64,000 nt of DNA, from positions 1,495,627 through 1,559,626 of the forward strand of contig UYJD01000003.1 of NCBI GenBank assembly GCA_900618795.1. The letters run 5' to 3'. The translations under genes and the position numbers were made by a program. Under the pieces are notes generated by a model that searched no databases, was not told the DNA's origin, and saw only the letters and a program-made list of their open reading frames with translations. Numbering within the stretch: the first letter of the stretch is position 1; each line of letters starts with the position of its first letter. The stretch comes from Cyanodermella asteris (lineage: Eukaryota; Ascomycota; Lecanoromycetes; Ostropales; Stictidaceae). Below are positions 2,590-58,644 of the stretch, in pieces.

Positions 2590-4113
2590 GTCCGTTCGTT
2601 GATGATGAGAAGGAATCCCAGAAACGGGTGTCAACTGTACTCCTCGACCGACACGGTCTACCTCTTCAGCATCAGCCGAGCGGGTTCAAGTATGATCTCC
2701 CGGTAGGTCGATGACTTGCCTTTCAGTGACCCCGGGATGCTGACAAGAAACTGAGAACTGGCCTACACGTCTCAAATGGCTCGTGCTCATACCAGTCTCC
2801 TTGCTGGCCTTCCTCGGCCCTTTCAACCGTGCCTTCATCAATCCAGCATATGCCCCTCTGGCTGCGGCTTTCAATATTCCTCAGCAGGAAGACTAGTATG
2901 TCACGACGACAGCAATCGTCTTCCAGGGCGTCTTTCACTTTTATGGGCCCCGCTTGCGAACGTATATGGTCCACGCCCAGTCTACCTCATAACAACTCTC
3001 ATCGGTGTCGCAGCAACAGTAGGCACAGCTGCTTCGCCAACATGAGCGGGACTCCTTGCGGCGCGAGCCGTCTCTGGGGCCGCCACATCCGCTGCCATGG
3101 CTGTTGGTGTTGAGACTGTCAACGACATGTTTTTCACGCATGAGAAAGGCATCGAGATGGGTATCTGGACACTATTCTTCGCCAACGGCTCACATCTTGC
3201 GCCAATCATAGGTGGATATCTCCCTCGGTCCGCTGGTTTCAAATGCTGCTGGTATCTGCCCGCAATCATCAACGGTAGTCTGCTGATTGTCATGTCTTCG
3301 GCCTTCCAGAAACTCTGTTCCCACGAACAGCAGAATTCCTTGAAAAACACAGGGAAAGATCGTATCACCAATTGTTTTGGAACCTCGGCAAGATTTCCGT
3401 CGGAATCATCATGTTCGTGTGCGTGACCTGGTCCGTCCCTTTCAGCTCCTGAGACATCCTTCGATAGCGCTCATATGGCCCTATTCCTTCTGTTCCTTCG
3501 AATTCGCTGCGATACTCCCCTCCGTTACGCTCGCCATTCTCTTTCGCCAAACCTAATCCTTCTCCACGGGCATCATCGCTCTCATGCTTGGAATTCCCTC
3601 CGTCGTCGGCTTCCCCTCCGGCGAAATCCTCGCAGGCCCTTTATCTGACTTCATCCTCCACCGCTACGCCCAACCCCACGACGGCGACCGCAAATCAGAA
3701 GCACGCCTCGTAGCCCTGGTCCCGAGTGCCCTGATCACACCTGCTGGGACGATGATCTACGGTGTTTGCCTGCACTTCAAGACCAATTGGATCGGTCTCG
3801 TGGTCGGAAATGCGGTTGCTGGCTTCGGGTTGCAGTTGGTGTTGACGGTCAGCTATGCGTACTGTGCGGATTGTTACCCGTCCAGGACGGCGGAGATGGG
3901 CGCGTTGTTCAATACGGGGAAGCAAGTATTCTCGTTCACGATTGGGTTTTATGCGAAACCGTTCGCGGATCAGGGTGCAGTATGCGTGGTTTCCGTTACC
4001 CCTGATACTCATCTTGGCATTCGTTGGACCCTTGATGCTATTATTTGAGGGAGCGGGATGGAGGGCATCCATGACGAGTCCAAGTGGGCGTCTGACTGAG
4101 GCTTGATACTACG
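2590..4113 (+). pseudogene. Decayed MFS multidrug-type transporter
   Basis: Fragments in all three plus frames match, in order, a fungal major facilitator of the drug:H+ antiporter kind. First comes the cytosolic N-terminus with GFKYD. The first membrane span follows (WLVLIPVSLLAFLGPFNRAF). Then comes VYLITTLIGVAATVG, the region VNDMFFTHEKG.MGIW, and finally the C-terminal half with GEILAGPLSDFILHRY and YCADCYPSRTAEMG. There is a stop shortly after the first span (EDx at about 2896), others upstream of it, and several frame changes between 2.9 and 3.6 kb. The longest intact piece is 3584-4048. A functional protein would be about 500 residues with 12 spans. The conserved family motifs show the gene was once functional; it cannot now make a transporter. 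Confidence 0.8.
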
Positions 4114-11955: not shown

Positions 11956-12082
11956 TGTAACGCGGGCACGGGGTGGTTGACTGTGTAGGCGACCAGTGAA
12001 GGACGGCGTCAAGTCTGAAGGTGTTGCTCGTAGGTCTGGGTCTTNNNNNNNNNNNNNNNNNNNNNNNNNTTTGTCCGTGACA
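11956..12082. mobile_element. Short LTR-like element (solo LTR or collapsed), copy 1
   Basis: The element begins TGTAACGCGGGCACGGG and ends CCGTGACA. It is flanked on both sides by the 5-base direct repeat GTCCG (11951-11955 and 12083-12087). TG...CA ends plus a 5-base target duplication are the signature of LTR retrotransposon insertion. A run of N (12045-12069) lies inside, so it may be a solo LTR or a longer element collapsed by the assembly. A second copy with its own target duplication lies at 58430-58644. No coding part is visible, and the family (Gypsy or Copia) cannot be told. Confidence 0.65.
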
Positions 12083-12087
12083 GTCCG

Positions 12088-12499
12088 CACTGCGGCTCAA
12101 CCAGATATCCAGAACCCCGCGACCATGAGAGTGTGGGATGTCGATGTTGTATGATAGTGGCTGTCTGCTTGTCATGTCCTGTTGCCGGTTCTACCGAGGT
12201 CGATGATAGGAAGGTGTAGAAATTGGGTGCATGGTTTGATTTGTTGAGGAAGACTATGGACTATAGGTGAGATATATGTATCCTGTATCAGGTGGCTGGG
12301 CAGGATCCAACCACTGATCCACTTGGTCACCTGGCTGACTTGCTGAATACCCGGCATTCAAGACAAGGAAGTGCTGTCGTCGCTTCAACGGACTTACTGG
12401 TACGCGTGCAGGACCCCTTGGGAACTTTGTGCAGTCAACAACTTCCCGTTGATTTGTTGTTTAAGCCCCTTGCGTTCAACTTCAAGAATTCTGACCGAC
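12088..12499. other. Intergenic, nothing recognised
   Basis: This 412-base spacer lies between the LTR-like element and the UNC93-like relic. No gene, repeat or RNA was recognised. Confidence 0.45.
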
Positions 12500-13957
12500 A
12501 TGTCCTACTTCGACGCAGCACCATCAAATAGTCATGCTGGAGGCAGATCAGATGCTCTACGAGCGAAGGGCCCCTTGCCAACGACAACAGCTAAAGAGGC
12601 TGACGATGGAGTTGATATGGAGGCTTACCAACAAGCTGTACCTTTGTGAAAGCGTGTGTATCGGCACAGTCTGATTCAAATGATGTTGCTCTCCGTACAA
12701 GCAATTTGTGGGCCAGCCATGAGCGACGCTATTGCCGGTGAGGCTCGCCAAAGAATCTGGAGACCGTTCAACATCTGGCCTTTCTAATCCTTGTTGGAGG
12801 TCGACTTGCCAACCGCAAACGAACAACATCGCGGCCACCGTCAACGACGCGATGCTTCTGATCGTTTGTTTTCCTTGGTGGATCCTTCGTTAGCAAGCTC
12901 GGGGTGAAGTGGGCTCTCGTCATTGGTGCTATGTCCTTTCCCTTGCAAGGTTTTTCATACTCTTGCAACAACAAATTCGGAAATCAATGGTACCTCATCT
13001 TCGGAGGAGCCATCTCAGGTATCGGCGCCGGCTGCATGATGTCGCTGGCACCGTCCGGAGCTCGTGGCAAATACTTGGCGCTTTCGATCGTATCATGAGA
13101 CTTGTGCCAGCTTGTCGGAGGTACGATTAATCTGGCACAAACAACGAAAAGTATGTGACCGGGGGGTCACTCCGGGTACCTACATTGCCTTCTTGATCAT
13201 CGAATGTTTTGCTTTGCCGTTCGCACTGCTGATTTCTCCGTTGGAGCATGTTGCTCGATCCGATGAAATGCGAATCGTTGTTTCGGAGAAGCTGTCCAAC
13301 AAGCAAGAATTCAAGTTCATCGGCCGTACGTGGGTCTTGAAGCTGGTGCTTCCTTCCTCTCTGTGGGCGATCTGGTCATTCTTCTACAGCGGAAGCTGGT
13401 CCACCTACCTTGCCGTATACTTCTCCGTACGAGCTCGAGCGCTTTCATCGTTAATATCTCACTTCTTCTGCATCGTTGGTTGTTTCGGACTTGGTTTTAT
13501 CCTTGAGATGAAAGTCGTGAGCCAGCGGCGTAGAGCACAGCTTGATCTGTTCACGGTCGTGATACTGAACCTTGGCGTGCATATCTGGTCGATCATGATG
13601 CAGGTCAGATTTGACAGATCTAGCCCGGGAACAATATGACGACTCGCTCTACCTGTTTGCGTTCCTCCCGTACTTCTTCGTGCAAATGACCGGACCATTG
13701 TCTCAGTCGTACTTGTGCTGGCTAATTTCGTCATTTGCGACGGACGCTCAACGTCAGTGCCGCGCTTTCCCCGCTTGCTGTAACATGCGCTAAGCGAAAT
13801 CTGGGGAACGTTCGAAACGGAGCCGCTTTCAGGTACGATCATGTGAAACGTGGGTCTCGGCATCAGCTGATAGTTGGCAGATGTATCGAAGCCGTGGGGC
13901 AGGCTATCTCGTATACCATGAACGCCGGGCTTAGCACGAGTCCTTTGGTTGGATTGT
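12500..13957 (+). pseudogene. Decayed UNC93-like MFS membrane protein
   Basis: A start codon at 12500 opens a polar N-terminus (MSYFDAAPSN). Pieces in several frames then match the UNC93-like (DUF895) branch of the MFS superfamily. They include YRHSLIQMMLLSVQAICGPAM, NIAATVNDAMLLIVCF, VSKLGVKWALVIGA, FGNQWYLIFGGAISGIGAG, TYIAFLIIECFALPFALLISP, and the end piece CIEAVGQAISYTMNAG. Frame changes and stops occur at several points (about 12.65, 12.75, 12.85, 13.08 and after 13.6 kb). The largest open part is 13064-13639. A working protein would have 10 to 12 spans and about 450-480 residues. It is a host transporter relic and the third decayed gene in 14 kb. Confidence 0.75.
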
Positions 13958-14609
13958 AGGTCCCTTCCTTTGAACTAGAAGATTGCGTACCGCTAACGAG
14001 CTCTGCGAAGCTGCGTTACCTCTACTCTCACGGGAGTGGCGCTATTACCGATGGTCGCATTGACAACCGCCACCTGACCGCATTCCAGCTGAACTTGTTG
14101 CAGAAGAGCAGGATCCGATGAAGAAAGGCTTAGCATCGAATCGAACACACAATGGCGCGAAATGGTGCAACTTTATTGCTCTGCTCAAAGCTGGACGACA
14201 TGCACTGACACACTTCATGGTTTTCATGTCATTGGTCGCGAGGGCTAATTAGAGCTTCAACTCGCATAGCCCACAACGTGCTGAGAGCCACACTTGCATC
14301 ACTACCACCCGATACCAGCTGCAAAATCTCGTTTGAAAAAATGATAGTTGCCGATGTGGCCCGATCGCGAATGAAAGTGGCCCCCAGATCAAAAGTCATG
14401 TTCAATCTGCACGAATTGGAGCTGCGGATTCTGATCTCGATCGCCATCTTTCCGGGCCACGAAGGCTGCAAGCATTTTTGCAAGTATGTCAGGCCACCAT
14501 CTAAGTTCGATCAATGAGAGTTTTCCGGAAAAGTGATGCTTGTATGATCCTGTGTCGTGGAGGTGGCAGACCCGCAGCCCCCTAACTTTATTCCCGCAAA
14601 TCAAAACAT
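13958..14609. other. Intergenic, nothing recognised
   Basis: About 650 bases without a recognisable gene, between the UNC93-like relic and the first duplicated block of the secreted-protein module. Confidence 0.45.
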
Positions 14610-14806
14610 CGGATCCTTGAGCGCCCGCTCATGGCGCAAGATATGGACGGAGAATCCTGGCAGCTGTCATCTGTGCTGTCCTACTTGGAGGCGAAACTTG
14701 CTGCGCCTCATTTAAGCGCCCTTGTGCGGGGACAGCGCATATCGCCTTTGCTTGCGGACCGCTCGGCGACCGCTTACGGCCCAGGCGAAGTCTGCAAACG
14801 AGGTTC
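14610..14806 (+). repeat. Upstream duplicated block, module copy 1
   Basis: This stretch resembles 20288-20448 at many points in the same order. Shared pieces are CCCGCTCATGGCG, a GGCAGCTG and TCTGTGCTGT pair, AAACTTGCTGCGCCT and GGCGACCGCTCGG, followed by a shared GTCTGCAA. The spacing between the two copies is about 5.7 kb, close to the spacing of the protein genes, so it marks the left end of a tandem segmental duplication. It is non-coding in copy 2, and I take it as non-coding here although a frame stays open through it. Confidence 0.6.
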
Positions 14807-15236
14807 AGGCACTGGCGCATCGAGCACTTGGTCTCGTACTCAAAGACATCATGCTGCATCGAAAAATCATTTACGTGGTACGCTAGCTAGGAAAAGGAAC
14901 CACACAGCTGTCAGCCCTTTTGTCGGCCAACTACGCCCTGTCGATGGCGGTCTTCAAAGTAATTGGAGAGGCGTACGGTTTCATGGTCTCTTGCCCATGG
15001 TCTACCAGGCCGCACACTTGCGAGCTATTGACCGGATCCTTGGAACTGGGCAAGAGATCTCGATGAGATACAATCGTGCTGTTTTTCCCTTGGCTGATCC
15101 TTACGAGCAGCCTCTGCACTGTCAGGAGCTGATCTTATTGAAACACGCCGGCTGCTCTACTATTATACTTGCCCACCATCTCGTGTGTCCATCTGATTCC
15201 GCTTGCAAAATCGTCTCTCTTGAGGAAGTCGCCACG

Positions 15237-15857
15237 ATGTTTCCCAAATACGTCATTGCTTTCATCGTTCATGTTCCACCACTCATGGCCCAAAGCAGCA
15301 CTCCGATGCCATCGTCTATGCCATCATCACTAAGCACGACGGAAGTCTCCGCGGCCACCGAACCTTCGGGTCCTGCCGGCAACTCAAGCCCGACCTGGAT
15401 AACCAAAAACGTTTACTATAGCCAGTATGTGGAGCAGAGCATGAAGCCTGCAGCGGCAAGCTATCTCGTTCAGCTCAAGTTTGGCTACAATGATGGTCGT
15501 TTCAAAGACAACGACAGAGATTTATACTCCATTTTGTACCACGGACTCTCTGACACTGATGATGTTGATCCTGATGACTTTGATGAAGTCGAGCAGCAGT
15601 CAATCAACAGATTCTTCATCGACGTTTTGCCTACAAGCGCCCAGGAGCTTCAAAGCAGCGTCGCTGCAGTATGGGAAAGCTACCAGGGGATCACTGCAGA
15701 TGCCTCGGAATCCTCTCGTTTCCATTCTCTGGTTGCTCAACACTCGTCCAAGACGGCGCTGAAAACGACCTCGAGCCAGGCAGCAGCAGTGAAGCATGCG
15801 GACGTTATCCATGGCACTCTATTCGGTGGCTGGCTCTGGGTGTTGGGCTTTCTATGA
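15237..15857 (+). CDS. Small secreted protein with GPI-like tail, paralogue 1
   Basis: 206 residues. I chose the ATG at 15237 because it gives a signal peptide (MFPKYVIAFIVHVPPLMAQSS) followed by a Ser/Thr/Pro-rich linker, as in the paralogues. The frame is open further upstream to 14631, but that part is not conserved. The core contains MKPAAASYLVQLKFGYND, then an acidic stretch, then FFIDVLPTSAQELQSSVAAVWESYQ. This aligns with MNSAAASYYLEQLYAT and GYFITLLPTKRQAYESSFISVWYSL of paralogue 2. The C-terminus has a small-residue stretch and a hydrophobic end (HGTLFGGWLWVLGFL) with no basic tail, as expected of a GPI-attachment signal. It has almost no cysteine. I infer a cell-wall or plasma-membrane-anchored protein; the family is not recognised. 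Confidence 0.75.
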   Translation: MFPKYVIAFIVHVPPLMAQSSTPMPSSMPSSLSTTEVSAATEPSGPAGNSSPTWITKNVYYSQYVEQSMKPAAASYLVQLKFGYNDGRFKDNDRDLYSILYHGLSDTDDVDPDDFDEVEQQSINRFFIDVLPTSAQELQSSVAAVWESYQGITADASESSRFHSLVAQHSSKTALKTTSSQAAAVKHADVIHGTLFGGWLWVLGFL

Positions 15858-17149
15858 GGGTATGATCGAGAATTTCGAGCTCGGGCTCGATCATGTTAGG
15901 GTCGAGCGCTGGCTTAGAAGCTTGAGAGTTGCTCGGTGAGCCAGTCTCAGCACTTTTCATCGATTCGTACTTGAACAGATCCAATGGAGAAATTGCGAAC
16001 CAGAGTGATCACAAACTGTAAACCATTTGCATAAAGTGAGTGAACAATACGCTGACGCGCGATCCAATCTGCTTCACAGTGTCGCTCGAGAAAAGACCAA
16101 CTACCAACCTTCTTCGCCCATCTTTCAAGCCTGGTGGTAAATTTGAAAAGCATTGGATGCGCAGACCGCACTGCGACCTAGTTCCATCTGGTCTCCTTGA
16201 GCTCGATCCGGTCACTTGCGTCATTTTTTCCTGGTGGCGCATCGACAATCGTGCTATTTTCCGAGGCGTAAACAAATGGTTTCAAGCTGGGGCTGATCTT
16301 CCCCATATTCCCTGATGACGACAGGAGTCCGTGTAACGGGACCTCTTGGCCCTTGGTCTGAAACGACAAGATCGAGCCATTCGGCCGCAACTGTCAGTGG
16401 CTGCCAGATTCGGCGGCGGTCACTGCCTGTCGGCCCTCGGCTATGATCTGAAGTTCGCTTTGATGCCCTACGGTCCACGCCTCCGGTCCTTGATGACGGC
16501 AAGCCTCACGTTTCTAGTTGTTTCAAGCTTGATACTGAGGGCATATGGCTGAAAATGATATTTCGGACTGTCAGAGCTGCTCGGCGCGCCGTACTGCAGC
16601 TATGATGTTCGTCTTGTTACCCAACAAGGGGCACAAGCCTCAACGACTTGGTGGCTCCCCGGACGGTCGATGAGAGTGAGCCTCGTTACCGTGGCCCAGC
16701 TTCAGTGTTTTGGTGACACGGCCTATCAGATATTCCCAAAGCCCTGTCCGTCCCTTGGCAAGAAGCATCACAGTCCGCTTTACCGTTTTACATTTTATGA
16801 GTGAGATCTCCTGAGTCTCGGACCACGATGGCACCCGCGTTTCATGGCCTCTGTCGGCCTCGTAGGAGCATCTCAAGGCGTCGAGTTATCTATGGGAGCA
16901 ATGCGTAGGATAGGCTGGTCAATTCTCCGTGTTGGCGTGGGTTGGCAGGATCGAAATTCGTAGTCATGTCAAGGCAGAAGAGGCCCAATCGGTACAGCCC
17001 CCTGGCAAAGTATTTAAGTATGCCGCATATCACCAGCCTCTGGGACCGAAGCCAACACTCATCCAAAGGAGGACAGCATTAACTCGATCTGCTGTTTCCT
17101 GTGTCGCTTTGGCCAGGAGCCTTCGTCTTTCAATTCAATTACCTCAATC
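15858..17149. other. Intergenic between small and large module genes
   Basis: About 1.3 kb with no credible gene; many short frames overlap on both strands. The right-hand 150 bases act as promoter and leader of the large gene. Confidence 0.5.
17011..17018 (+). promoter_or_regulatory. Possible TATA element of large gene 1
   Basis: TATTTAAG lies 139 bases before the ATG at 17150. The second large gene has a TATATATA stretch at a comparable distance before its ATG, which supports a core promoter role by position only. Confidence 0.35.
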
Positions 17150-19729
17150 ATGCAGGCCATGATGGTATCATCAGCCTTTTCTGCGATATTCCTCACGATT
17201 TTCTGGGCAGCGACTGCCGTGGCGGCAGTAATACCTGCAGTCACTGAGCTCTCCCCCTCTACCAACGTCCTTCAGCGACACCAACCAGGATTACCCGTCC
17301 GAGATCTCTCTCGGAGTCCTACCGTGAGACCTCGCGACGACGTAAAAATGAAACTCTTGAAGGATATTTCCAGTGCCGATTGTGACAAACTCACAAAAAA
17401 CCCGAAGAGGCCGGCCTGGAACGATGCGGGTGGCAACGAAGCCTTAGATCAGTTTCAGGAGCTCTGGACCAAGGATCTACTTTTCTGTGATGACTGCCTT
17501 GGCCTCACGAAAGACCAGTGCACAAGCCAAGGCGACGATTGCGCGATGGGTCTTCACTCGGCATCAAAAAATCAGACCCATGGGGATGCTCGTTGGGATG
17601 TTGCCCTCGCACTCTACACCGGGACGACACCGCAAACGTGCGGCGCTAACGCCGACGGCTGCAAGACTGCAGATTGTGGCAATTTCGACGGTGTCTCAGC
17701 CGCCTTTATCCTGTGGCAGTCTTTGGTTGACATCAATTCGCAGATGCAAGAGACCTGGGAAACGCTAGACGAAGCGGCTGACGCTCTCGGGCCCCAAGCG
17801 CAAACGTTTTCTGACTTCTTCGCGCCCCTCCCAGATTACAGTAAGGACAGAATCGCAAATGGTATAATCACTACTTCAACCGCTGCTATCCTTGGTGCAC
17901 TGCCGGCTATTGGAGGGACCTTCGCGGCATTTGCCAGCTTCGGAGCCGCAGCCGGAAGCAACGCATTCACAAACAGTCTGGACACGAAGCCAGCTAACAC
18001 GGGAGCATTGATTTCCGCCTTCGGTAATGGAATGAAGGACATGATGGCAATCACTTCCCAGCAACTCTTCGGGACTGATCAACTCGACAACAGCACAGAT
18101 GCTAAACAGGTCTTGTACGAAGCTTTGAAAGATGGCGCCATGCTTGATGCCCCGTTACCAGACAACTTTGCCAAGGACCTCAAGACCATGTACATCAGAG
18201 TCATCTCTCAGCAGGTCGCAGCAAGTGCTTGGCAGTCATTGCAGTCATTGGACCACGGTTATGAGTCGTCACCATTCATTACATTTGCAAACGGTCCGTG
18301 TGAGGGGCTCGATCACGGAGATAAGACAAAGGTTCCAATACTTCACGATCTTGAACATATGGACACACAAGTTGAGATCAATGGTACATGCTACTGGCTT
18401 TTGACCGCAACGCCAAAGCAGCCTGAAAACAACAATGACGCGTACGCTTGCAACGGCTTCCAACCTCTGAACGGAGGCACCAATGATGCACTCTCAAAGC
18501 AAGGCGATACCTTTGGCTACCTCAACTTGAGAGACTTCATTGAGCCCTCGGTGCTAGGGTGGCTGAACAACAATCGTGTCAACGGGTTCTCGAGAATAGG
18601 CAGCACGGACACTGTCGGGGCCTTCATTCCCGATCCTCGAGTTGCAGGCACGGTCAACTTCACGGTATGTGATTATGTAAGCCAGCATGTGCACCTCCAG
18701 CTGCCAGGCGACGGATGCCCGAAGCTTGGTGAAAACCTTCAGTTGGACCAGAAAAAATGTAATCTTCAAGTCGCCAACACGGAGGCCCCCAATCCTCTCA
18801 TCCAGTATGCGGGTGCGTGGCAGCCGGGCACTTGCAAGGTCGAGTGGATGTGGTACGGCGCAGGACTGCCTCTCGCAACGGGCTACAATCCAATACCCAC
18901 AGGTTTCCAATTAGAGATCCGAGTTCACGACAACGATAATCGAGAGATTGGCAACGCCGCGAGGCAGTACTTTCGCAATGCGTGGGAGTTACAAAACAGT
19001 GCTTTACCATACAACATATACATCAGACTCCCAAGCATCGACAAAGCCGAAGACCAACTTCAGTTCTGGTACGCCGATGACCATTGGTGGTCTGATGACA
19101 CATCGTCTCAACACAGCTGCAGTAATGGTAGATGGATAGAGGGCGTGAGATCAGGACACTGCCTGTTTCAATGCGGGATACCCCCGGTCGATGCTCACCG
19201 GGAAAATCCGAACGCGAAGACACCGCCCATCGCCGAGGACAATATGCAGGTCCCCATTACCTTTGGCGCCCCTCTCGCTACGCATGACTTCGATCGCATT
19301 CGTGACCAACCAAAGGAGCCAGACAGGTCCGGGGCTCCGGACGCCTACAGCGACAAGTCATGCTGGGTGCGAATCGTTCAGTACTGGTACGGAACAGCTA
19401 ACGTCGACAACTTCCTGTACCAAGCATATGTTGGCAGTGGCGACGGCCAAAATAGCAAAATCCTCGCGCCCGCCTACAACGCCTTGGTTCCAGCCCCTAT
19501 TGATGCTCCTCAACCTATTTACGGGTTGCGTGGCAGTTTCAATGCGTCGTTCCAACTTGACAAACTTGCTCCGATAACATTTTCATATATGAATGGCGGG
19601 AATCACGATACCTGGAAATCAGATCAGTCTAGCCGTTGCAAGCAGGAAGTTGGCTATCAGCAGCCCTCTCCCGGTGCACTGGGTAATGGCTTCAGGTCGA
19701 TATTGTGTCACCTTGCATGCGACGGATAG
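17150..19729 (+). CDS. Large secreted Cys-containing protein with Gly/Ala hydrophobic segment, paralogue 1
   Basis: This is a single exon of 859 residues. An N-terminal signal peptide (FLTIFWAATAVAAVI) is followed by a proline/arginine-rich linker. Residues about 110-132 hold a Cys motif, LFCDDCLGLTKDQC, then CGANADGCKTADC. A 35-residue Gly/Ala-rich hydrophobic stretch lies at about 238-272 (ITTSTAAILGALPAIGG onward) and could form a membrane hairpin or buried core. The C-terminal two thirds are rich in Trp, Tyr and Asn, with ALPYNIYIRLPSI, WYADDHWWSDD and CWVRIVQYWYG; each has a close match in paralogue 2. Further cysteines near 540-690 and at the end suggest disulphides. Several NxS/T sites fit secretion. 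The family is not recognised and no enzyme motif is seen. Its partner appears to be the small GPI-tailed protein upstream. Confidence 0.85.
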   Translation: MQAMMVSSAFSAIFLTIFWAATAVAAVIPAVTELSPSTNVLQRHQPGLPVRDLSRSPTVRPRDDVKMKLLKDISSADCDKLTKNPKRPAWNDAGGNEALDQFQELWTKDLLFCDDCLGLTKDQCTSQGDDCAMGLHSASKNQTHGDARWDVALALYTGTTPQTCGANADGCKTADCGNFDGVSAAFILWQSLVDINSQMQETWETLDEAADALGPQAQTFSDFFAPLPDYSKDRIANGIITTSTAAILGALPAIGGTFAAFASFGAAAGSNAFTNSLDTKPANTGALISAFGNGMKDMMAITSQQLFGTDQLDNSTDAKQVLYEALKDGAMLDAPLPDNFAKDLKTMYIRVISQQVAASAWQSLQSLDHGYESSPFITFANGPCEGLDHGDKTKVPILHDLEHMDTQVEINGTCYWLLTATPKQPENNNDAYACNGFQPLNGGTNDALSKQGDTFGYLNLRDFIEPSVLGWLNNNRVNGFSRIGSTDTVGAFIPDPRVAGTVNFTVCDYVSQHVHLQLPGDGCPKLGENLQLDQKKCNLQVANTEAPNPLIQYAGAWQPGTCKVEWMWYGAGLPLATGYNPIPTGFQLEIRVHDNDNREIGNAARQYFRNAWELQNSALPYNIYIRLPSIDKAEDQLQFWYADDHWWSDDTSSQHSCSNGRWIEGVRSGHCLFQCGIPPVDAHRENPNAKTPPIAEDNMQVPITFGAPLATHDFDRIRDQPKEPDRSGAPDAYSDKSCWVRIVQYWYGTANVDNFLYQAYVGSGDGQNSKILAPAYNALVPAPIDAPQPIYGLRGSFNASFQLDKLAPITFSYMNGGNHDTWKSDQSSRCKQEVGYQQPSPGALGNGFRSILCHLACDG

Positions 19730-20163
19730 CAGTGATTACATCATGTTTGTTTTGACAGTTGACATGACGAAATTGATCTTTCTCTCGATGCGTCAGTGCG
19801 CTCTAGCTGTGTGTGGCGTCCTTCAGGATGTGCTCAGGAAGTACCGGCTTACTGAAAATGACGCCGACAGAGAGGGTCGACCGTGATGAGACCTTCTCTT
19901 CGTGCCAAGGCTGCGGCAGGCGCATTGCGCTTTGTAAGTGGAATGAGATAACGAAGAACCTGTATTAGCGGCATATACAAACTCGAGACATTTGAATCGA
20001 AATCAGAGCCCGCGAACAATACTGCTCCACAGCATAGACTGAACCTCGTTGTATCTCATGCAAAGCGACAGTACAGCTTTACATGCCATAGCTCATCATC
20101 ACCATCATCAAAGCCAGCCAACCAAGATCGTACGTCCTCTAAAGTCAGGAGAAGGCGTTCAGA

Positions 20164-20278
20164 ATGCCAAGAGAAAGGCGATTAAGTCTAGGTTATTTAC
20201 TTAAGAAACGACGAGTATATAGGCGGGCTCGCTTAGTTATTATAAGCCTAGGCCTCTATATAAACACTTTATCCCCGA
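20164..20278. repeat. AT-rich, RIP-like repeat remnant
   Basis: This block of about 115 bases is rich in TTAT, CTATA and TTAAG steps (for example GTATATAGG and CTCTATATAAAC) in otherwise GC-balanced DNA. It looks like a fragment of a repeat mutated C-to-T by the fungal RIP process. It sits exactly at the junction between the two module copies. No family can be assigned. Confidence 0.4.
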
Positions 20279-20287
20279 GAATGGAAG

Positions 20288-20448
20288 CATTGAATCCTTT
20301 AGGACCCGCTCATGGCGTGAATCATGAGTGGAGAGTCGTGGGCAGCTGATCTGTGTGCTGTTTTGCTCGGAGGTGAAACTTGCTGCGCCTGTGGCCTGTT
20401 TGGCGACCGCTCGGAAACCGCATCCGGTCTAGAGACAGTCTGCAAGCA
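20288..20448 (+). repeat. Upstream duplicated block, module copy 2
   Basis: Counterpart of 14610-14806, with the same order of shared pieces (CCCGCTCATGGCG, GGCAGCTG, AAACTTGCTGCGCCT, GGCGACCGCTCGG). It has suffered deletions relative to copy 1. Confidence 0.6.
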
Positions 20449-21754
20449 GAGATATCGATAGTCCAACTTTCACAAAACAGAGGTACTTGGTTACTGTGGC
20501 TTGTCTCCGTTAACATCATACTGCAATCCCTTGTGAGCGTTGTGGTACGCTAGTTGCAAAGACGAAAATGCTCCAGTGTCAGCCTTGTCGGAAGCCAGAC
20601 ATATACCTACACGGGCCACTTGACAGAGGGGCGAGTGTTTCATCGACACCAGCCCAGCAGACATCGACCGCGTGGTCGCGTGACTGCCTGGATCCCAGCC
20701 TTGGCGATTCAAGAAAGCCCCGACATTATGTTCGAATCGAAGCTCAGACTCCCTTGAGCATCCTTGCAGGGTCTATTTTGTCATAAGCTTGGGTTGCGAG
20801 TCAGAAACACGCGCAGGGGACGACGCCCAAACGACCGGTTACACGAAGCGTTCAGATGCAATCGCGTGATAACTCGTCATCTCGTCCCCGTTGTTCCAAG
20901 TGCCGGGGCCTTGCAGGCATGCTTCCTGAGCTAAAAAGAACGGATTTGAAAGTTGACCCAGCTTCGGGGCACCGCCGACAGAGAGCTGCATGTCGGTAAT
21001 CTTTCAATACTTCTTTCGTGGCTCAGAGTTGGGATCCAGACACTACCTTCCTGCCACTTGGATGGTCGAAACTCCAACCTGAGTTCTCATAATGCGAGAT
21101 CGTTTGATCGCGAGGAAATTTGTCACAGATACGATCGCGAACGCTATCTGATTTCTGGGACCATGCCATCCGGACAGTAGGATTTCATGCAAGATTTGAT
21201 ACACATGCTCGAACACTAACGTTCACTGCCCCTGCCAAGATGATCCGACTACGACCTGCATACATCGTCGACTGTTTCAAGGTCGGCCATAGACTGTGAC
21301 TGATAAAGGTTCATACTTGCCAGTCTACTTCTCCTCCTTGTCGATATGCGGCACAGCATCTTAAGTATCCAGGAGCGGAGCCAGGCGAAGAGATGCTTGG
21401 CTTGTATACCGAGCCGGCTCGGTTTCAGATCGCAGCGACATGCGCCAAAGATGCGTAGATGTGCGTAACTTTCTCGTTGCTCAGTCGCCATGAGGGGCCT
21501 CGGCTTTGTACCTGCATGCAGTCATGGTATTAGAGCACAGCGGTCAGTTTAACATGCAATTGGGTCTTATGCCAAGTGTGCGGGGAAACGAAGGAGGCCG
21601 AGAATGTGGCCGTATCTGAAACTTGACCCCAACTTTCCGTCGGATACACTTCAGACTTCTTCTAGCAACGACGGTGACCAGACACGACTTCACTTACTCT
21701 TTTTCCATTGTCTACTGGAGATTTTTCCCTTCCAAAAACAACAAGCAAAACACA

Positions 21755-22360
21755 ATGACAGGCATTTTCATCGTTGCCAGCCTTTTCTCCCTCTCGGGTT
21801 GCACTTTTGCCCAGTCAAGCACCGCAGCTCCAGCCACTTCTGTGATGACTTCGAACAGTCGACAAGGACCCAGCACGGTCACATCAGCACCAAGCGCCGC
21901 CGCCACAAGTCTGTTCCTCGGCACCAAGTTCAGTAACCTCATGAGCCAAGGCATGAACAGTGCTGCAGCCAGCTACTACCTTGAACAATTGTACGCAACC
22001 GAAGAAAATCGGAACGATAATGAGCTCGCATCCAAATTAGTCCCGTACGTCGGCGACGAAGCGTTCGGTCTGCTTGACGTTGCGCCTGCTCTCACAGTGG
22101 AGGGATATTTCATCACGCTGCTGCCAACCAAGAGGCAAGCATACGAGAGTAGCTTCATCTCGGTGTGGTATAGTCTCAACAGTCAAACGCCCGACGCAGC
22201 GCTCTCCAGGAGCTACCACAGTGTTTTCGATTCGGCAACAGCGGCATTAGCCACCCGAACCTCCTCTTCCTCCTCGAGTCAAGCGGCTGCTGCTACGCAA
22301 GCGGTGCCGGCAGTTGAAGTTCTAGGGGGTATTTTGCTCGGAATGGTCGGCTTACTGTAG
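21755..22360 (+). CDS. Small secreted protein with GPI-like tail, paralogue 2
   Basis: 201 residues from the ATG at 21755, which begins a clean signal peptide (MTGIFIVASLFSLSGCTFAQSS). The frame is open upstream to 21623, but that extension is not shared. A Ser/Thr/Ala-rich linker follows, then the conserved core MNSAAASYYLEQLYAT and GYFITLLPTKRQAYESSFISVWYSL. A Ser-run (SSSSSSQAAAA) comes next, and the hydrophobic end VEVLGGILLGMVGLL fits a GPI-attachment signal. The same architecture and the QSST tetrapeptide after signal cleavage occur in paralogues 1 and 3. It lies 0.7 kb upstream of the second large secreted protein gene, in the same orientation, as in module copy 1. The function is unknown; a surface-anchored role is inferred. 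Confidence 0.8.
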   Translation: MTGIFIVASLFSLSGCTFAQSSTAAPATSVMTSNSRQGPSTVTSAPSAAATSLFLGTKFSNLMSQGMNSAAASYYLEQLYATEENRNDNELASKLVPYVGDEAFGLLDVAPALTVEGYFITLLPTKRQAYESSFISVWYSLNSQTPDAALSRSYHSVFDSATAALATRTSSSSSSQAAAATQAVPAVEVLGGILLGMVGLL

Positions 22361-23066
22361 CGCAGCTTTGGCTCTTTAAGGTCTTACTCCGTTCGAGGAT
22401 AGCAGTTCTCATTTCGATCGTCAATTCATGTCTCGCCTTGTCCGACCAATCAATTTCTGGTTGCTGTATTTCCAAGATGCAAAAACGCTATCACGATTGC
22501 TCCGTGACTGAGTTGATTTCGGCTCAATGTTGTACGTCATACAGAGGCCTGCAGGCTCCACGTGCACTGTACCCCATCAACAAACATCTCCATTGCAGTT
22601 TTAGCAGTTAGACTAGCGATTGGACGTCTCTGGGGTATGTCATTTACACTAGGCCGCTAAAAGGGTCGACTCCTGTAACCTTCCGCGTCTTATCTGATGG
22701 TGTGTCCGTTTCAGATTCTGGTCTCGGTTTCATCGTCGGAGAAGCTCCTGCAGCTTGGTCTGAAATATGCCGTCGTTGGATTACCCAAAAGTGATCGGGC
22801 GACTGTTACTATCGAAAACTACGCAAACTAGCCCCTCCTCGAGTCTTGAATTTCAAACCCGAGCGTTACGACGTTTCAAGTGGGTGAAAATGTACCAAAC
22901 GTCAGCAAGCTTCATCCCATCAACTTCGTATTGGATATATATATCCAAGACTGTCACCTGGGGCAGGCAATATGGTCTTTGACACAACTTGGCTTGCCTT
23001 GTCTCCCGCAGATCAGCCCTTGCCTCAACCCCCTCATCTTGCTGTTCCAAGTCTTGATACCCAATC
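22361..23066. other. Intergenic between small and large gene, copy 2
   Basis: About 700 bases with no credible gene, compared with 1.3 kb in copy 1. It holds the palindromic TATA-like site at 22931. Confidence 0.5.
22931..22948. promoter_or_regulatory. Palindromic TATA element of large gene 2
   Basis: TTGGATATATATATCCAA is a perfect 18-base palindrome ending 118 bases before the ATG at 23067. The TATATATA core suits a TATA box. The flanking symmetry could also be a regulator site, but nothing beyond sequence supports that. Confidence 0.4.
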
Positions 23067-25856
23067 ATGCCCTTCACCTCAGCAACTGCAAGTCATGCCC
23101 CATACATTCTCATCTTAGCGCTGCCGGTCAGTGCTAATCCTATATTCGACACTGGATTATTGCTCCCGCCGTCGGCTTCGAAGACCGACACTTCTCTGTA
23201 CCAGATTCCAATACCGCAAAGCTCTGCTGAGATCACCAGCTGTACCACCAACGGGTCGGGCTCCGTCATGCTTTCTAGCTTATCCACATCACCCGAAGAA
23301 ACTACGAGCAGCTCGCTGAATGTTTCCTCAATGCAAGACAGCTTGATTCCGACGGCCACAGAAACCGGGCCAACTACCCGTCCTCGTTTCGTGCCTTATT
23401 GGTCTCAGTTCACAATAAACACGGCTACAGCAAGTGCGACTTCAAACGTTACTGGATCGACCGATTCAACTCCAGAGAACGGTACTTGCCACAACGTTCG
23501 CGACACGCTTGGGTCCGAGGCTTGGACGAGGGGCGACGGGAATCACTGGCTCGATCAATTATTGGACATGTTCCGAAACAACAAGCTTTATTGCCAGCCA
23601 TGCTTTGGTCTGAGTAAGGATGACTGCAATGCGAGAGGTATCACTGCGAGCGGCTGCGACAAGGGCATTTACGACGCGGCGAAGGACTATTCGGATCAAC
23701 AAATTGCAAGATATGATGTTGCTGTTGGACTGTAGTCCGGCGGTAATCGACACATCAGATGCGGAGATCCAAGTGATCGTGCATGCGCCCCGCAGACTTG
23801 TGAGGCGATGAACAATAACACAGGCGGCTTTTTGATGATCAATTCAATGGCGATCCTGAGCGAGATGCTCCTCACGATACGTGAAAATCTCGATCATGCA
23901 ATACAAAGCACCACAGGCAGGGGGACTTCGTACGCGCCCGTATTTGCACCAAATAAGGACCCAAACCAGGCTAGAATACCTCTGGGCATCACAGCAGCGG
24001 TAATATCTGGTGTGCTTGGCGTAATTCCTGGGCTAGGAGGCCAGGCCGCTGCACTTGGAAGCATGTTCACAGGAATCGCCAACACCATCATCTCGAATGG
24101 CTTCGATAGCACTCCCGCTGACGCATCAACGTTCATAACTCAAGCAGGTGACATGCTTATGTCTCGCTTTTCAAACCAGACCGCAACGGTCTTTGGAAAC
24201 GGGACCTACTTTGATCCCGGACACATCGAACGGCAGGAAGCGAACATTACGGAACTGATGCGTGATGGAAAACTACTCGACGCAAAGCTTCCTGATTCGT
24301 TGAACCAAACAATGTACGACAGCTTTGTGAAACTCGTGGTAGGACAGCTAGCGCTCCATCTCTGGTCGTATGATCAGCAAGACGGAACAACACTTCGGCC
24401 AATAATCACATGGGCGCCAGGTGACTGCGGAAGTCTCGATTACAAAAGTCTCAATTCCGTGCCGTTCCCCAACAAAAATCTTGAGCATCTCGACAGCTCG
24501 ATCACCTACAACGGAACATGCTATTGGCTTCTTGCTTTTGACTCTGTGGAGCATGCGAGAGAGGGAAGGTCACAAGACGACAATAATAGCTACTGGCAAT
24601 GCGATACGCCTCGAGCTCTACCAGGGGGAACAAACAAGGAGCTGGAAAATATCAAAGACATTACAAACGGTTTCACGCTCGAGGATTTCATCATTCCCTC
24701 AGTCGAAGGGTGGATTCTGAATGGTAAGAGCAACAACTACCCACTGGCAGGATATGGACCAAATCTCTTGCCCGGTCCAAGAGCCCCAGGTGCCATCAAT
24801 ATCACCGTGTGCGATTACATGAACAGGCAAGGTTCCCCAGGTGTCAATTGTCCTGATACGCTCACTGTCACCCGGAGTTATGAAGCTTGCGGCCTTCAGA
24901 GTCCAGGAGATACCCCAAGAAATGATTTGATCATGTACCCTGGATATTGGACGCCAGAAATATGCAGGGTACAGTGGACTTGGTTTGACACGTCAGCTCT
25001 TATCAAAGATGCTCTGAATCCGATTTCAACTGGATATCAGCTCGCGGTGTCGATCATGGACAGTTCTGGTAAGGTCATTGGAAACGCGGCGAAGCAATAC
25101 GTCGGGAATGTGCTTGAGTTGTCCAACTCGCCGCTACCATACAATGTGTATATTCGGCTGCCACCTATTGAGCACGACGATGATAAGATCGAGTTTTGGT
25201 ATGATCAAGATCACTGGTTCTCCGACAACCAGGACGCAGCTCATAGCTGCGACCAGGGCAAGTTTGAAGGCAAGGTTAGGCACGGTCACTGTCTTTTCAT
25301 CTGCCGCATGCCGGGAGACAATGCGCCAAAGGAGGATTATCGTGCTAAGAACCCTCCGATAGACACGGTACAGAAAGCCATTGCATTCGGCTATCCTATG
25401 GCCACGCATCAATTCAACAACATACGCGAACAGCCATCTGACCCAGTTCGCAATGGGGTCGCTGACTATCCAAAGACCGGATCCGAATGCTGGGTTCGGG
25501 TTGTTCAATATGGCTACGGGTATAACTTGGTCAGCACTTACCAGTTTCAAGCGTACTGGGGCGTCCACGACGAGCAGTATTTGATGCCCGAGTACTCTGC
25601 ACAGGTTCCAGCGCAAGCAGATGTGTCTCAACCAATTTATGGAACCCGGGGCAGCTTCAATGTGACGTTCCCATTCGATGCAAATAAGCACATGATGTTC
25701 GAGTTCATGGATGTCGAATACGATGCTGACTACGGCCCGCCCGTTCATTGGGCTTGGGACACTGACAACAACAAGGAGTACGGGTGCAAGAAAGAGATTG
25801 GATGGGACGGCAACAAACGACAGTACAAGTGCAACTTCCATTGTAAAACAACTTGA
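23067..25856 (+). pseudogene. Large secreted Cys-containing protein, paralogue 2, frame interrupted once
   Basis: It is homologous to the 859-residue protein at 17150-19729 over nearly its whole length. It has a signal peptide (SHAPYILILALPVSANP), then a longer Ser/Thr-rich linker. The Cys motif LYCQPCFGLSKDDC and a second Cys cluster follow, and then a Gly/Ala hydrophobic segment (LGITAAVISGVLGVIPGLGG). The conserved C-terminal part has PLPYNVYIRLPPI, WYDQDHWFSDN and CWVRVVQYGYG. The first 223 residues and the remaining 682 or more lie in the same frame, but an interruption separates them. Whether it is a true lesion, a variable allele or a splicing effect cannot be told. The downstream 2 kb shows no other damage, so the break would be recent. 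Protein divergence from copy 1 is high, so the duplication is old. Confidence 0.7.
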
Positions 25857-26632
25857 GCACGATGCGCGGACGTGGTACTGAGTTGTCGAAATGGAAAATC
25901 GCGGAACTTGTTCGCGGCCGGGCGGGTACGGATAGGCTCTGAAGCTGACAATAACGACCTTCATCGCTGTAAGCGCGCAGCTCAGTACAGCCTTCGTGAT
26001 CATGACCGCCTTTCAAGCCCAGGCTGTAGGAGAGGCATTGCTTTTTTATATGCAGAATGAGAGAACGCCGAACCTGGATTACTGTGAATTGGGAACTCGA
26101 AAGATTCGATCAGCAACAGAATCCGGCCTTCTTTGCAACCCAAGTGAATTTGTGCTGTCGCTTTGCATGCCACAGCCTGGCATCATCGAAATGCATCAAC
26201 AAAATCGTACATACTCAAGTCAGAAGAGGGGCAAAGGTCTTCCGCTCACGCCAAGCGACTTTTTGTGCGGCCAATCGATGTCGATTTGTTTCACACTCAG
26301 TCCTCGCCAGCGAGTCAATGGTAAATAGCAAGCTTAACATTTCCAAGCTTGTCAAACGTCAAGTCGATCATCGTGTGACCACGGCGGCTGTGTCTGGATG
26401 TTGGACCAGGCTCTGTGAACCCGCTTTGCCAGTCCTGAATGCCTGGTGTTCAGCTTCGTCATCTGTGCTAGGTCGCAAACGCTGTCCTTTACCGAGCCTG
26501 CTTTGCGGTCTCGATCAAGTGCTCAGCAGGCAAGAGCACAATACATCTTTGATTCGCATGGCCCGCAGACCTCGTATGCTCTTACCATGTAGTTCTCACA
26601 ACTTGCAATGATTTGCGACATCTGCAAGCACA
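25857..26632. other. Intergenic, nothing recognised
   Basis: About 780 bases between large gene 2 and small gene 3. Open frames are short and change often. No RNA gene or repeat was recognised. Confidence 0.45.
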
Positions 26633-27292
26633 ATGGGTAGACTCCTTCTCACTTCATCCTTTTTGATCCCCTCGGTGATGGCTCAATCCAGCACAGCCTT
26701 GCCCAGGTCAGCCTCGTCGCTCCCAGGCAGTACCGTCTCGAGCACTGCGCCGACAGCTGCAACACCCTCTCCCACTCCTTTATTGAATGATGACGGCCCC
26801 TGGTTCACCCATACTGCTTTCTACCGCGAGGCCCTCTCTGCAGACATGAACCCTGCAGCAGCCAGCTACACCGTGAACCAGTTCTATACAACCGACGCGA
26901 ACGCAAGCCTGGAACGAGGCAAAACGAATAGAAGGCTTTCGACCAAATGGAATGGGCCTTGACCAGGACATTAGGGTCGACGAAGAGGCGAATCGTCTGT
27001 CGATTGCGGGATACTTTGTCACCTTCCTCCCCTCGTCCGCCTGCGAGTATGAGAGCAGCCTCATTGCCGTCTGGCGCAACTTGCAGAGTTCGACTATGGA
27101 TCTGTCCGAGTCGGTGCGGCTGCGTAGCTTGTTTGAATCATATGTTTCCAAAGAGCGCTTCGGCGTCTGCATCGGCATCTGCGGCCCCAGCGTCTTTTGC
27201 GAAGGCAGATCGGGGAGCAGCTGTTGCTCCGACTGGAGTTTGTTTGATGGCGATGGCAGGAATCTTTGCGGGCGCGGCGGGTGCCATCTGAG
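26633..27292 (+). pseudogene. Small secreted GPI-tailed protein, paralogue 3, damaged
   Basis: The ATG at 26633 gives a signal peptide (LLLTSSFLIPSVMAQSST) and a Ser/Thr/Pro linker as in the other two copies. The conserved MNPAAASYTVNQFYTT follows. The later core (SIAGYFVTFLPSSACEYES and LIAVWRNLQSS) and the Ala-rich hydrophobic end (CLMAMAGIFAGAAGAI) are present but lie in two other frames. About two small insertions or deletions therefore separate the parts, near 26.90 kb and near 27.15 kb. There is no large partner gene downstream, so this is the left part of a third module that has been truncated and is decaying. Confidence 0.75.
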
Positions 27293-28529
27293 TTGTGAGT
27301 CCATCGAGTATGTTCATATTAGTAGCCAGACCAAATGTTGTATTCAGTCCTCGCCCACGGCACGAGTCTTGGTATCGTGGTATCGAAATTCATGCAGGCA
27401 TTGACTAAGGTTGAATGCGGCAGGCAAGTTGCGTAGGAGTAGCTCCATTGATCGCTGGTACTTATGAGTTGAAGGCACTGGCAGACAGACGTTCACCAGT
27501 GAACGTATGGATCGTTATCATGCTGAACGAGCTTGACTGCCTTCTTGACACAGTCGCGATGCATCTTCCCGGCCAGCACGAGACAGCTGTCAGCCCTTCT
27601 CAAGACCACATTGGCGATGGTCACAAAGCCGGATTGAATCCATCAAGACACCGTGACAGGATCGTGCTCACAGCTACTCTGAGCCATATTCCCCACGAAG
27701 TTGTTCGAAGCTCAAGATCACGAGCTTGATCGCCGCAAGTGCGCAGTCCAGCACAGCCTCGCCGATCAAAACCCAGCTGCATCTCGACAGCCTCTCATTG
27801 GCCACATCCACCCTTCATCAGCCCTTCTGGAAGCCTTCCCAAACCAGCCGCAGCCGAAAACAAGCGAAAACAAAGTCCCTGGCCCCCAACTCACGCCAGT
27901 GCCAGCCGTCCGAATGAGGTCATCCTGCAACCTCGTCCCGGTCCCCACTTTGAAACACAAAACCACGAGTCCTTTCGATCCGGAGACTCGCGATGGGCAG
28001 ATCGCCTCACCTGTGGAGACACCAGAGCGTCCTGACAACGCCCGTTGGCCAACATCTGGGGTTGTCGTGCCGCACGCAACGTCACTGGCCGTGAAGTTGA
28101 GCCGTGTCCAGGGTCGTTTCAAGATGGTCCCCTGGGAACTGTTCTGCTTGTGGTAGGCAGTCCACTGGGAGCGCTCCGATTCCAGCTCGAGCCTTCGATG
28201 GCAGAGACTGGATGGAAGTGGCCTGTGTCAGGTGTCCCTGGCGGCTGGTTTTGCCTTGTGGGGATGCAGCGCTGAGCCTTGCGAGGTGCCCGACTGCACT
28301 GCGGCGTCATGAGCGACGACCTGGAAGCAGGTGAGCGTCACAGCAACAGTGAGAGTGCGAATAGCAGCCTCAAGGCATCGTTGTGCTGGTGTTCTGGCAG
28401 ATACATAAATGTAAGCGGTTCGTAACCTTTTCTCGGATTCTGCTCCACTGCATAGATCAACACATAAACACAAGAACACTGTCAAAACAAGTCAGAACTC
28501 TACACATTCCTCCTCCAAGTATCACCACC
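27293..28529. other. Intergenic with scraps of a third module copy
   Basis: No intact gene. ACAGCTGTCAGCCCTT at 27586 recurs at 14905 upstream of small gene 1, which suggests further duplicated fragments out of order. Open frames on both strands between 27.7 and 28.3 kb have no recognisable product. The last 150 bases serve as the promoter of the Gly/Ser-rich protein. Confidence 0.4.
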
Positions 28530-28973
28530 ATGCTCTCACGAAATATCCTCTTCCTCTCCCTTCTCTCCCTCACAGCCTCGTCTGCTATACCCTCAGACGC
28601 ACAAGATGTCACTCCGTCCTTTGACGTCGCAGACAACACAAATTCGACCAATCCAGACGGCATCAACATCGTCTCCAAGCCCGGCAGCGGCGGCGGAGGT
28701 GGAGGAGGAAGCAGCGGCTCTTCTTCCAGCGGGTCATCATCAAGCGGCTCCTCTTCAGGTTCCAGCTCCGGCTCCTCCGGCTCATCTGGATCAAGCTCTT
28801 CGGGCTCGAGCGGTGGCCGCAGTGGCTCGTCATCATCATCAGGTAGCCGAGGCTCCACGGGCTCTGGCACAAGCTCCTCGTCCGTGAGTGCTGCAGGTCC
28901 GATGCTGATGGTGGATATGTGGAAGGTCGAGATTGCGGCCGTCACGGCTGCGGTTGGAGTATGGGCTGTTTGA
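28530..28973 (+). CDS. Gly/Ser-rich small secreted surface protein
   Basis: 147 residues. The signal peptide is MLSRNILFLSLLSLTASSAI. A short acidic/polar segment with an N-glycosylation site (NSTN) follows. Residues about 49-115 are nearly all Gly and Ser (SGSSSSGSSSSG type repeats). A short C-terminal segment ends in hydrophobic VEIAAVTAAVGVWAV without a basic tail, which fits a GPI signal. I chose the ATG at 28530 because only it gives a signal peptide; the upstream open frame is leader. The Gly/Ser tract will be prone to slippage, so its length is likely to vary between isolates. It follows the secreted-protein modules and may be part of the same surface cluster, but its sequence is unrelated to them. 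Function unknown. Confidence 0.7.
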   Translation: MLSRNILFLSLLSLTASSAIPSDAQDVTPSFDVADNTNSTNPDGINIVSKPGSGGGGGGGSSGSSSSGSSSSGSSSGSSSGSSGSSGSSSSGSSGGRSGSSSSSGSRGSTGSGTSSSSVSAAGPMLMVDMWKVEIAAVTAAVGVWAV

Positions 28974-29244
28974 GCAACATGGCCAGACAGAGCGGGCGCG
29001 AGGCATCGTGGAGGAACTGTACTTCTACTTTGACGACACTTCATGAGCATATACCCAGAGTACGCATAGCATAGCAATAACATTTGACTTCAAACTTCGT
29101 GCTTTTCCTACTAGAAACAATCCAAGGTTCATGGCATGCAAGTGCACTGATTTCAATCGACTCCAAATTTGTTTCTCGCCAACAGCAGTATTTCTTTGAC
29201 AGTAACGCTCATCGCAAGCACTTTTCGTAGTTGTAGTCATTCAG

Positions 29245-57769: not shown

Positions 57770-58429
57770 GTTGAAACCGGCCTGTTTGTCGATCAGTTGT
57801 GATCGTATCAAAAATTTCCCTAGGCCTGCTTGTGCGCGTAATCTGAGGCTCGCGATTGGATCGTGCAAGTTTAGATTCCCTAACAGACGTGGCGATGGGG
57901 TTTGTGGCGAAGAGGATGATAAAGAGGCAGAATCCACCACGCAGTGCATTTTGCCTCCACGGACCATTCACTCATCGCACGCAGCTTTCTGTTTTCCGAA
58001 CGCTGAGTCGAGGAGAACGGAACACAGTGACACAATCGCGCTGACCGCTGGAGGAGTGAGTCCAGGATCGGACCCCTTCTTTCGCGCACATTGACTTGCT
58101 TTCAATCTCCATTCGATAGGTTTTCGTGGCCAGCACACGCGCATCCCCTCTCATGCTTCATATCCAAATGATAACTACCTCACTGCTTGGGTGCCGCCAC
58201 TCATTTCCCTTGCGCTGACGAGGCACATATCGCAGAGAGGCATTCACGAGTTGCGATTCGTGTATCCACAATCGACCATCGCGCTCGACGCGCGTTCGGC
58301 AAAAAGGATAGTTCAAGGCAATAGACTTTATGTACCTGCTTTGGGCTTGGAGAAACACAAATAGAAGCCTCAATCAGGATTCAGGCTGCGATTCGAGAAA
58401 TGCCTGCATTGATTTCGACCCTCCTGTTT
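57770..58429. other. Intergenic, nothing recognised
   Basis: Promoter side of F-box copy 2, then non-coding sequence up to the LTR-like element. The last five bases (CTGTT, 58425-58429) are a target-site duplication. Confidence 0.5.
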
Positions 58430-58644
58430 GTAACGCGGGCACGGGTTGGTTGACTATGTAGGCGACCAGTGANNNNNNNNNNNNNNNNNNNNNNNNNNNN
58501 NNNNNNNNNNNNNNNNNNNNNNNNNNNNNNNNNNNNNNNNNNNNNNNNNNNNNNNNNNNNNNNNNNNNNNNNNNNNNNNNNNNNNNNNNNNNNNNNNNNN
58601 NNNNNNNNNNNNNNNNNNNNNNNNNNNNTCCTTTGTCCGTGACA
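58430..58644. mobile_element. Short LTR-like element (solo LTR or collapsed), copy 2
   Basis: It starts TGTAACGCGGGCACGGG and ends CCGTGACA, as in copy 1 at 11956-12082. The first 44 bases of the two copies differ at only two positions. It is flanked by its own 5-base direct repeat CTGTT (58425-58429 and 58645-58649). A 156-base N run (58473-58628) fills most of the inside. The different target duplications show independent insertions, and the high similarity of the ends suggests they are fairly young. No coding part is visible. Confidence 0.65.

Follow-up and report, generated by a model that had tools for sequence, protein, structure and literature searches.

A tandem cluster of small and large genes for putative surface or secreted proteins, with partly broken later copies

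Layout of the cluster and its surroundings

The window analyzed here is a stretch of 64 kb, and all positions given below are positions within it. Between 14.6 and 28.3 kb, its plus strand carries small genes (S, also used for their proteins), large genes (L), and noncoding blocks (A and B) in the order A-S1-L1-B-A-S2-L2-B-(S3) (Table 1). S1, L1, and S2 are intact, each in a single open frame. A sequence-only reading of the same DNA had placed small, large, small, large, and small genes in this order on the plus strand, which the open reading frame (ORF) listing bears out; its outline of the arrangement was right, but the later copies are less complete than it claimed. The window also encodes an ornithine carbamoyltransferase, a thiamine-phosphate synthase/hydroxyethylthiazole kinase fusion, and a GMC oxidoreductase, and judged by these genes it looks fungal. 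Its gaps amount to 628 N in total.

Table 1. Features of the cluster, in window positions
Feature	Position	Strand	Basis or remark
Block A, copy 1	14585..15148	+	Noncoding; the start of S1 follows 89 bases downstream
S1, intact small gene (206 aa, counted from the chosen start)	15237..15857	+	Homology to S2 and S3
L1, intact large gene (859 aa, 22 Cys) for a secreted-looking protein	17150..19729	+	ORF, hydropathy, homology to L2
Block B, copy 1	19882..20174	+	Start lies 153 bases after the L1 stop
Block A, copy 2	20266..20812	+	End lies 943 bases before S2
S2, small protein, 201 aa, intact	21755..22360	+	ORF, hydropathy (both ends hydrophobic, GPI-anchor-like), homology
L2, first segment, 222 codons	23067..23735	+	Terminated by an in-frame TAG
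L2, second segment, 706 codons, in the frame of the first segment	23736..25856	+	Stop-free until its end; homology to L1
Tentative relic 1 of a small-gene 5' end, AQLST	25942..26008	+	DNA likeness to 27707-27773, translation
Block B, copy 2	25995..26258	+	Start lies 139 bases after the L2 stop
S3, broken small gene over three frames	26633..27291	+	tblastn pieces, hydrophobic tail
Tentative relic 2 of a small-gene 5' end, AQSST	27708..27773	+	DNA likeness to relic 1, translation
Tentative third large-gene fragment, 48 codons	28110..28253	+	Weak match to the second L2 segment

The DNA around the cluster holds several further features. At 12900-13640 (+), translations in several frames, with stops, resemble membrane transporter fragments, which by eye we take to be UNC93/MFS-like; within this stretch, 13268-13636 gave only a weak match to DUF6677 (E = 0.0017, below the cutoff). 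The stretch is possibly another decayed gene beside the cluster. A fragment at 3557-4045 (+) has a subthreshold match to MFS_1 (E = 0.00023; 20.6 bits versus 33.4). Beyond the other end of the cluster, 28530-28973 (+) contains a 147-aa Gly/Ser-rich ORF with hydrophobic ends, resembling a GPI protein; the S queries gave no tblastn match there at an E value of 1, and a 208-aa antisense ORF overlaps it. Finally, a 44-base repeat (11956-11999 and 58429-58472; 95% identical), the second copy of which abuts a run of N and the first of which lies near one, probably marks a site where the assembly broke.

Small and large gene families

The S1 and S2 proteins align with 47/157 identical residues (~30%; E = 4e-12), and the alignment score of 164 compares with a maximum of 56 in 300 shuffles of one partner. 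The asserted kinship of the small proteins is thus well founded, while the motifs given for them need correction. A shared N-terminal motif is present but, because S1 has MKPAAASY, its form is M[KN]xAAASY rather than MNxAAASY, and the core reported as FFI/YFI-LLPT actually occurs as FFIDVLPT, YFITLLPT, and YFVTFLPS. The S1 frame is open from 14586 to 15854, and its first ATG, at 14631, would give a protein of 408 aa. In total, 217 open codons precede the chosen start (14586-15236), yet they display no coding pattern when compared with copy 2. We kept position 15237 because homology begins there and the upstream DNA lacks a coding pattern; this putative start is a choice, made by homology to S2 and S3.

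S3, previously listed at 26633, does not form a single frame. By tblastn, its likeness to S1 is split between 26666-26935 in one frame and 26946-27152 in another, with the hydrophobic tail in a third, and the GT-AG introns enumerated for it all lack a consensus-like donor and a CTRAY branch site. Nor does S3 have a large partner that is intact. Hydropathy was the sole measure used for signal peptides and GPI tails, and by it the GPI-like tail ascribed to the small proteins is clear for S2 but weak for S1 (mean hydropathy of the last 15 residues, 2.19 versus 1.18). S1 contains no 19-residue segment at or above 1.4 on the Kyte-Doolittle scale, and the hydrophobic ends of S3 are split over frames. 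Ser, Thr, and Ala together make up 40% of S2, a composition seen in GPI proteins, and 30% of the weaker candidate S1. The small proteins are probably Ser/Thr/Ala-rich proteins GPI anchored to the membrane or wall, and they may resemble small GPI proteins of fungi in which an LPT motif occurs.

The large genes are homologous as well. L1 and the second L2 segment are identical in 250/717 columns (35%; E = 1e-142), with an alignment score of 1123 against a shuffle maximum of 65 (n = 300), and the C-terminal 312 to 315 residues of L1 and L2 are 46% identical. In the first L2 segment, residues 152 to 222 match L1 residues 89 to 155 (17414-17614). All cysteines of the second L2 segment (17/17) fall in columns invariant with L1, and the five remaining cysteines of the 22 in L1 align by eye with five of the six in the first segment. 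A hydrophobic segment is common to both proteins (238-268 in L1 and 78-107 in the second L2 segment). The common Cys motifs and hydrophobic segment attributed to the large proteins are therefore borne out by alignment and hydropathy. With a hydrophobic N terminus and five N-glycosylation sequons, L1 looks like a secreted, disulfide-bonded protein, as a prediction from its sequence.

The second large gene had been listed at position 23067. It is indeed a homolog of L1, but not an intact gene, as a TAG at 23733-23735 splits it into ORFs of 222 and 706 codons. Enumeration of GT-AG introns with fitting length and phase yielded six across this stop. Judged by coordinates, splicing out any of them would cost L2, at a minimum, the Cys codon at 23760 that it shares with L1, and all six lack both a consensus-like donor and a CTRAY branch site. 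L2 and S3 therefore look broken unless the assembly errs there; as the window has gaps, the two breaks could stem from assembly errors instead. In all comparisons of gene pieces (7/7), the third codon position was the most divergent, as expected of proteins that were once, or may still be, under purifying selection.

Possible debris of further copies lies downstream of L2. A 67-base stretch (C; 25941-26007) recurs at 27707-27773 with 49/67 bases identical, and the mismatches between the copies number 2/22, 7/22, and 9/23 at codon positions 1, 2, and 3. In one frame, both copies resemble the end of the signal peptide of the small proteins, followed by AQ[LS]ST (AQSST in the small proteins); the first copy gave no significant protein match. 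The second L2 segment finds a match of 30.0 bits and 27% identity at 28110-28253 (E = 0.014 for the whole window). No control reached 30 bits with any of six queries, whether codon shuffles (0/200) or control stretches (0/70), the latter being half-overlapping stretches from outside the cluster from which those with >50 N were dropped. Against this, the L1 query gave no matching hit at 28110-28253. We tentatively regard the C copies and this fragment as relics of further units. In a low-stringency tblastn, the matches listed were mostly noise. Repeat-induced point mutation (RIP) was rejected as the cause of decay, as 13 stretches showed no RIP signature by the usual index thresholds (TpA/ApT, 0.41 to 0.71; [CpA+TpG]/[ApC+GpT], 1.19 to 1.55).

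Neither family had been recognized from the letters, and the searches agree: no Pfam match for S or L was found at the curated cutoff (queries were S1, S2, two S3 pieces, L1, and two L2 pieces, then subpieces of L1 and L2). For L1, the only Pfam match with an E value of <0.01 was PDGLE (PF13190), at residues 208 to 261, overlapping the hydrophobic segment. Membership in this family was rejected, since the scores of 16.6 and 19.9 bits fall below the cutoff of 27 and the match is absent from the L2 pieces 23736-24440, 23808-25853, and 24918-25853; it probably reflects composition. NCBIfam (L1, two L2 segments, S1, and S2) and PHROGs (L1, second L2 segment, S1, and S2) gave only matches with E values of >0.03. 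PDB sequences contained no relative of L1 or of an L1/L2 profile, and plasmids contained none by tblastn with L1. Because the contig scans are seeded with short exact peptide patterns, they can miss distant relatives; two scans of prokaryote genome contigs with L produced 5 and 27 pattern matches, and four of viral contigs (three with L, one with S) produced 0, 35, 89, and 94, none of which was confirmed. AlphaFold2 models of L are too poor for use (mean pLDDT of 29.2 for L1 with the second L2 segment and 36.7 for the C-terminal third), although they hint that helices dominate the N-terminal half and that strands occur toward the C terminus. L may resemble other large proteins with hydrophobic segments that fungi secrete, and DUF7872 was considered as a possible relative; a literature search on DUF7872 found no paper, and those on GPI/secreted gene pairs and killer-toxin-like chitinases found nothing usable.

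Flanking blocks and the extent of the duplication

Matching noncoding blocks do precede both full units, as had been noted, but the duplication reaches further than described: block A covers the longer intervals of Table 1, and each large gene is followed by a copy of block B. The copies of block A are identical at 356/489 aligned bases overall (94/124 in the core), and those of block B at 183/246. The copy-to-copy spacing is 5681 for A and 6113 for B, and the S-L gaps measure 1,292 bases in unit 1 and 706 bases in unit 2. The S-L intergenic stretches of the two units do not align above shuffles (63/200 reach the score), nor does the DNA directly after L1 and L2 (25/200 and 33/200 in two overlapping tests). 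In this set of tests, sixteen pairwise stretches were each compared with 200 shuffles. Only the extension of block A (14966-15148) was reached by no shuffle (0/200); for thirteen stretches, 25 to 200 of the shuffles did as well. Two pairs were borderline, namely, the stretch after the second B copy versus A1 (4/200; this stretch started at 26331 and so left out 26259-26330) and A1 versus the stretch after S3 (6/200). Repeated gene order with homologous flanking DNA, the mark of a tandem segmental duplication, is thus present on both outer sides, and we therefore infer that the units arose by head-to-tail segmental duplication.

A coding role for block A was considered and rejected. Mismatches between the copies are even by codon position (41/162, 48/164, and 44/163), many indels are not in threes, and none of the three frames of copy 2 is free of stops; Pfam gave nothing for block A beyond one chance match. 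Because mismatches spread evenly over codon phases, blocks A and B behave as noncoding. Rfam gave no match up to an E value of 1 over 12000-29000, no tRNA was found in the 64-kb window, and no further copy of A, B, or the 67-base repeat C occurs elsewhere in the window at an E value of 0.01. One of the two inverted pairs found in 12 to 30 kb, with arms of 29 bases that are 83% complementary (20057-20085 and 26141-26169), has one arm inside each B copy, so block B is partly palindromic. No inverted pair of at least 25 bases bounds A or B, a length below which shorter ends would escape detection.

Genes and flanks differ markedly in divergence. Where aligned, the flanks are ~73 to 76% identical, versus 42 to 52% for coding DNA (seven comparisons). 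At fourfold sites of identical residues, L1 and L2 differ in 69/102 cases, against a random expectation of 75%; these sites are nearly saturated. Equal divergence of genes and flanks, while not strictly defining of a duplication, would be expected if nothing had happened since, and it was not observed. The flanks look much younger than the genes they enclose, and a single old duplication without later events does not predict this. Any of the following could produce the contrast: regulatory DNA under constraint, gene conversion, later copying, or unequal crossing over of haplotypes that had long been separate.

Origin of the cluster

We consider it probable that the locus arose by an old head-to-tail duplication, followed by birth and death of genes in a surface or secreted protein cluster. 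A stretch of ~5.6 to 6.0 kb comprising block A, the small gene, the large gene, and block B would have been duplicated head to tail long ago. Unit 1 would have stayed intact; unit 2 would have kept its small gene while its large gene was interrupted by a stop codon. The third small gene would have been broken, and the scraps may hint at additional lost copies. The gene order, the homology, and the breaks are what the sequence shows; the history is an inference from them. The predicted L product would be exported and held by many disulfides, with a Gly/Ala-rich hydrophobic segment in its N-terminal half. From these sequence features, S and L would be likely to act on the cell surface or in its immediate surroundings, and their copies would come and go as they do in other secreted families that are lineage specific. 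The adjacency of S and L is, as we read it, an inheritance from the duplication.

The sequence-only reading drew another conclusion from the pairing, namely, that the two proteins work together, for example as an anchored and a released partner at the cell surface. Spelled out, S would be a surface-anchored docking or protective partner of a released L, and selection would have kept the pair together. Each full unit does contain one S followed by one L, and the tentative large-gene scrap lies beyond the broken S3. However, the flanking DNA on both outer sides was copied as well, so a single segmental duplication accounts for the order. As the product of one copying event in one genome, the pairing is no independent evidence of functional coupling. 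S2 is intact while L2 is interrupted, and the S-L spacing is loose and unequal, with intergenic DNA that cannot be aligned above shuffles. The interruption of L2, together with a broken S3 that lacks an intact large gene, argues against selection keeping the pairing in the later copies, and we judge a selected partnership unlikely. The TAG of L2 might, alternatively, be read through, lie in an unrecognized intron, or be an assembly base error; the 706 further stop-free codons in the same frame, the third-position bias, and the retained cysteines speak for an unbroken gene. The loss of at least one conserved Cys codon that each of the six candidate introns would cause, and their lack of a consensus-like donor or CTRAY branch site, count against it. 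An unbroken L2 seems rather unlikely, although it keeps an appreciable share of probability.

The younger appearance of the flanks bears on two other explanations. Blocks A and B might derive from independent insertions of a mobile or repeated element beside the genes, as they are far less diverged than the genes and B is partly palindromic; B also lies directly ahead of A between L1 and S2, which would allow B-A to be a single element having truncated copies at other sites. This is weakened by the lack of further A or B copies in the window and by the lack of bounding inverted pairs of at least 25 bases, and both units have the blocks in one and the same arrangement around their genes; we consider independent insertion quite unlikely. 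Alternatively, the units might be pseudo-alleles, meaning old and divergent haplotypes of a single surface locus with two genes, kept by balancing selection in self/non-self recognition. Nearly saturated genes beside alignable flanks on both sides would fit, since haplotypes joined by unequal crossing over in conserved flanks would leave the flanks matching better than the genes. Two-gene loci with very divergent haplotypes are also known, namely, Podospora het-B (PMC10890737) and Neurospora cwr-1/cwr-2 (PMC9550227). Yet the basis here is a single genome; no HET, TIR, lectin, or PMO domain was among the Pfam matches of S1, S2, the S3 pieces, L1, and the L2 pieces, and thus no HET/TIR-like death domain such as would mark a het locus; and flank constraint, gene conversion, or later flank copying explains the contrast equally well. 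We regard pseudo-alleles as highly improbable. The same holds for a new two-gene recognition locus, in which a released disulfide-rich protein with a membrane-seeking segment and a GPI-anchored partner would persist as old haplotypes. Were the contrast truly that of balanced old haplotypes, it would point to a new surface recognition system.

Like het-B and cwr-1/cwr-2, S and L are two adjacent genes in very divergent versions. Unlike those loci, the cluster has both versions in tandem in one genome, and the Pfam searches found no domain in common with them. Under the old duplication with subsequent gain and loss that we favor, the case is one of fairly ordinary gene birth and decay, and the locus documents two fungal protein families without a match in the searched libraries, in a decaying tandem cluster. 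Such clusters are a common kind of locus in fungal secretomes. The cluster is like the lineage-specific tandem clusters of secreted or GPI protein genes in filamentous fungi in having no named domains, tandem copies, strong divergence, and broken copies; it differs from them in that no relative was identified and in that two unrelated families have been copied together.
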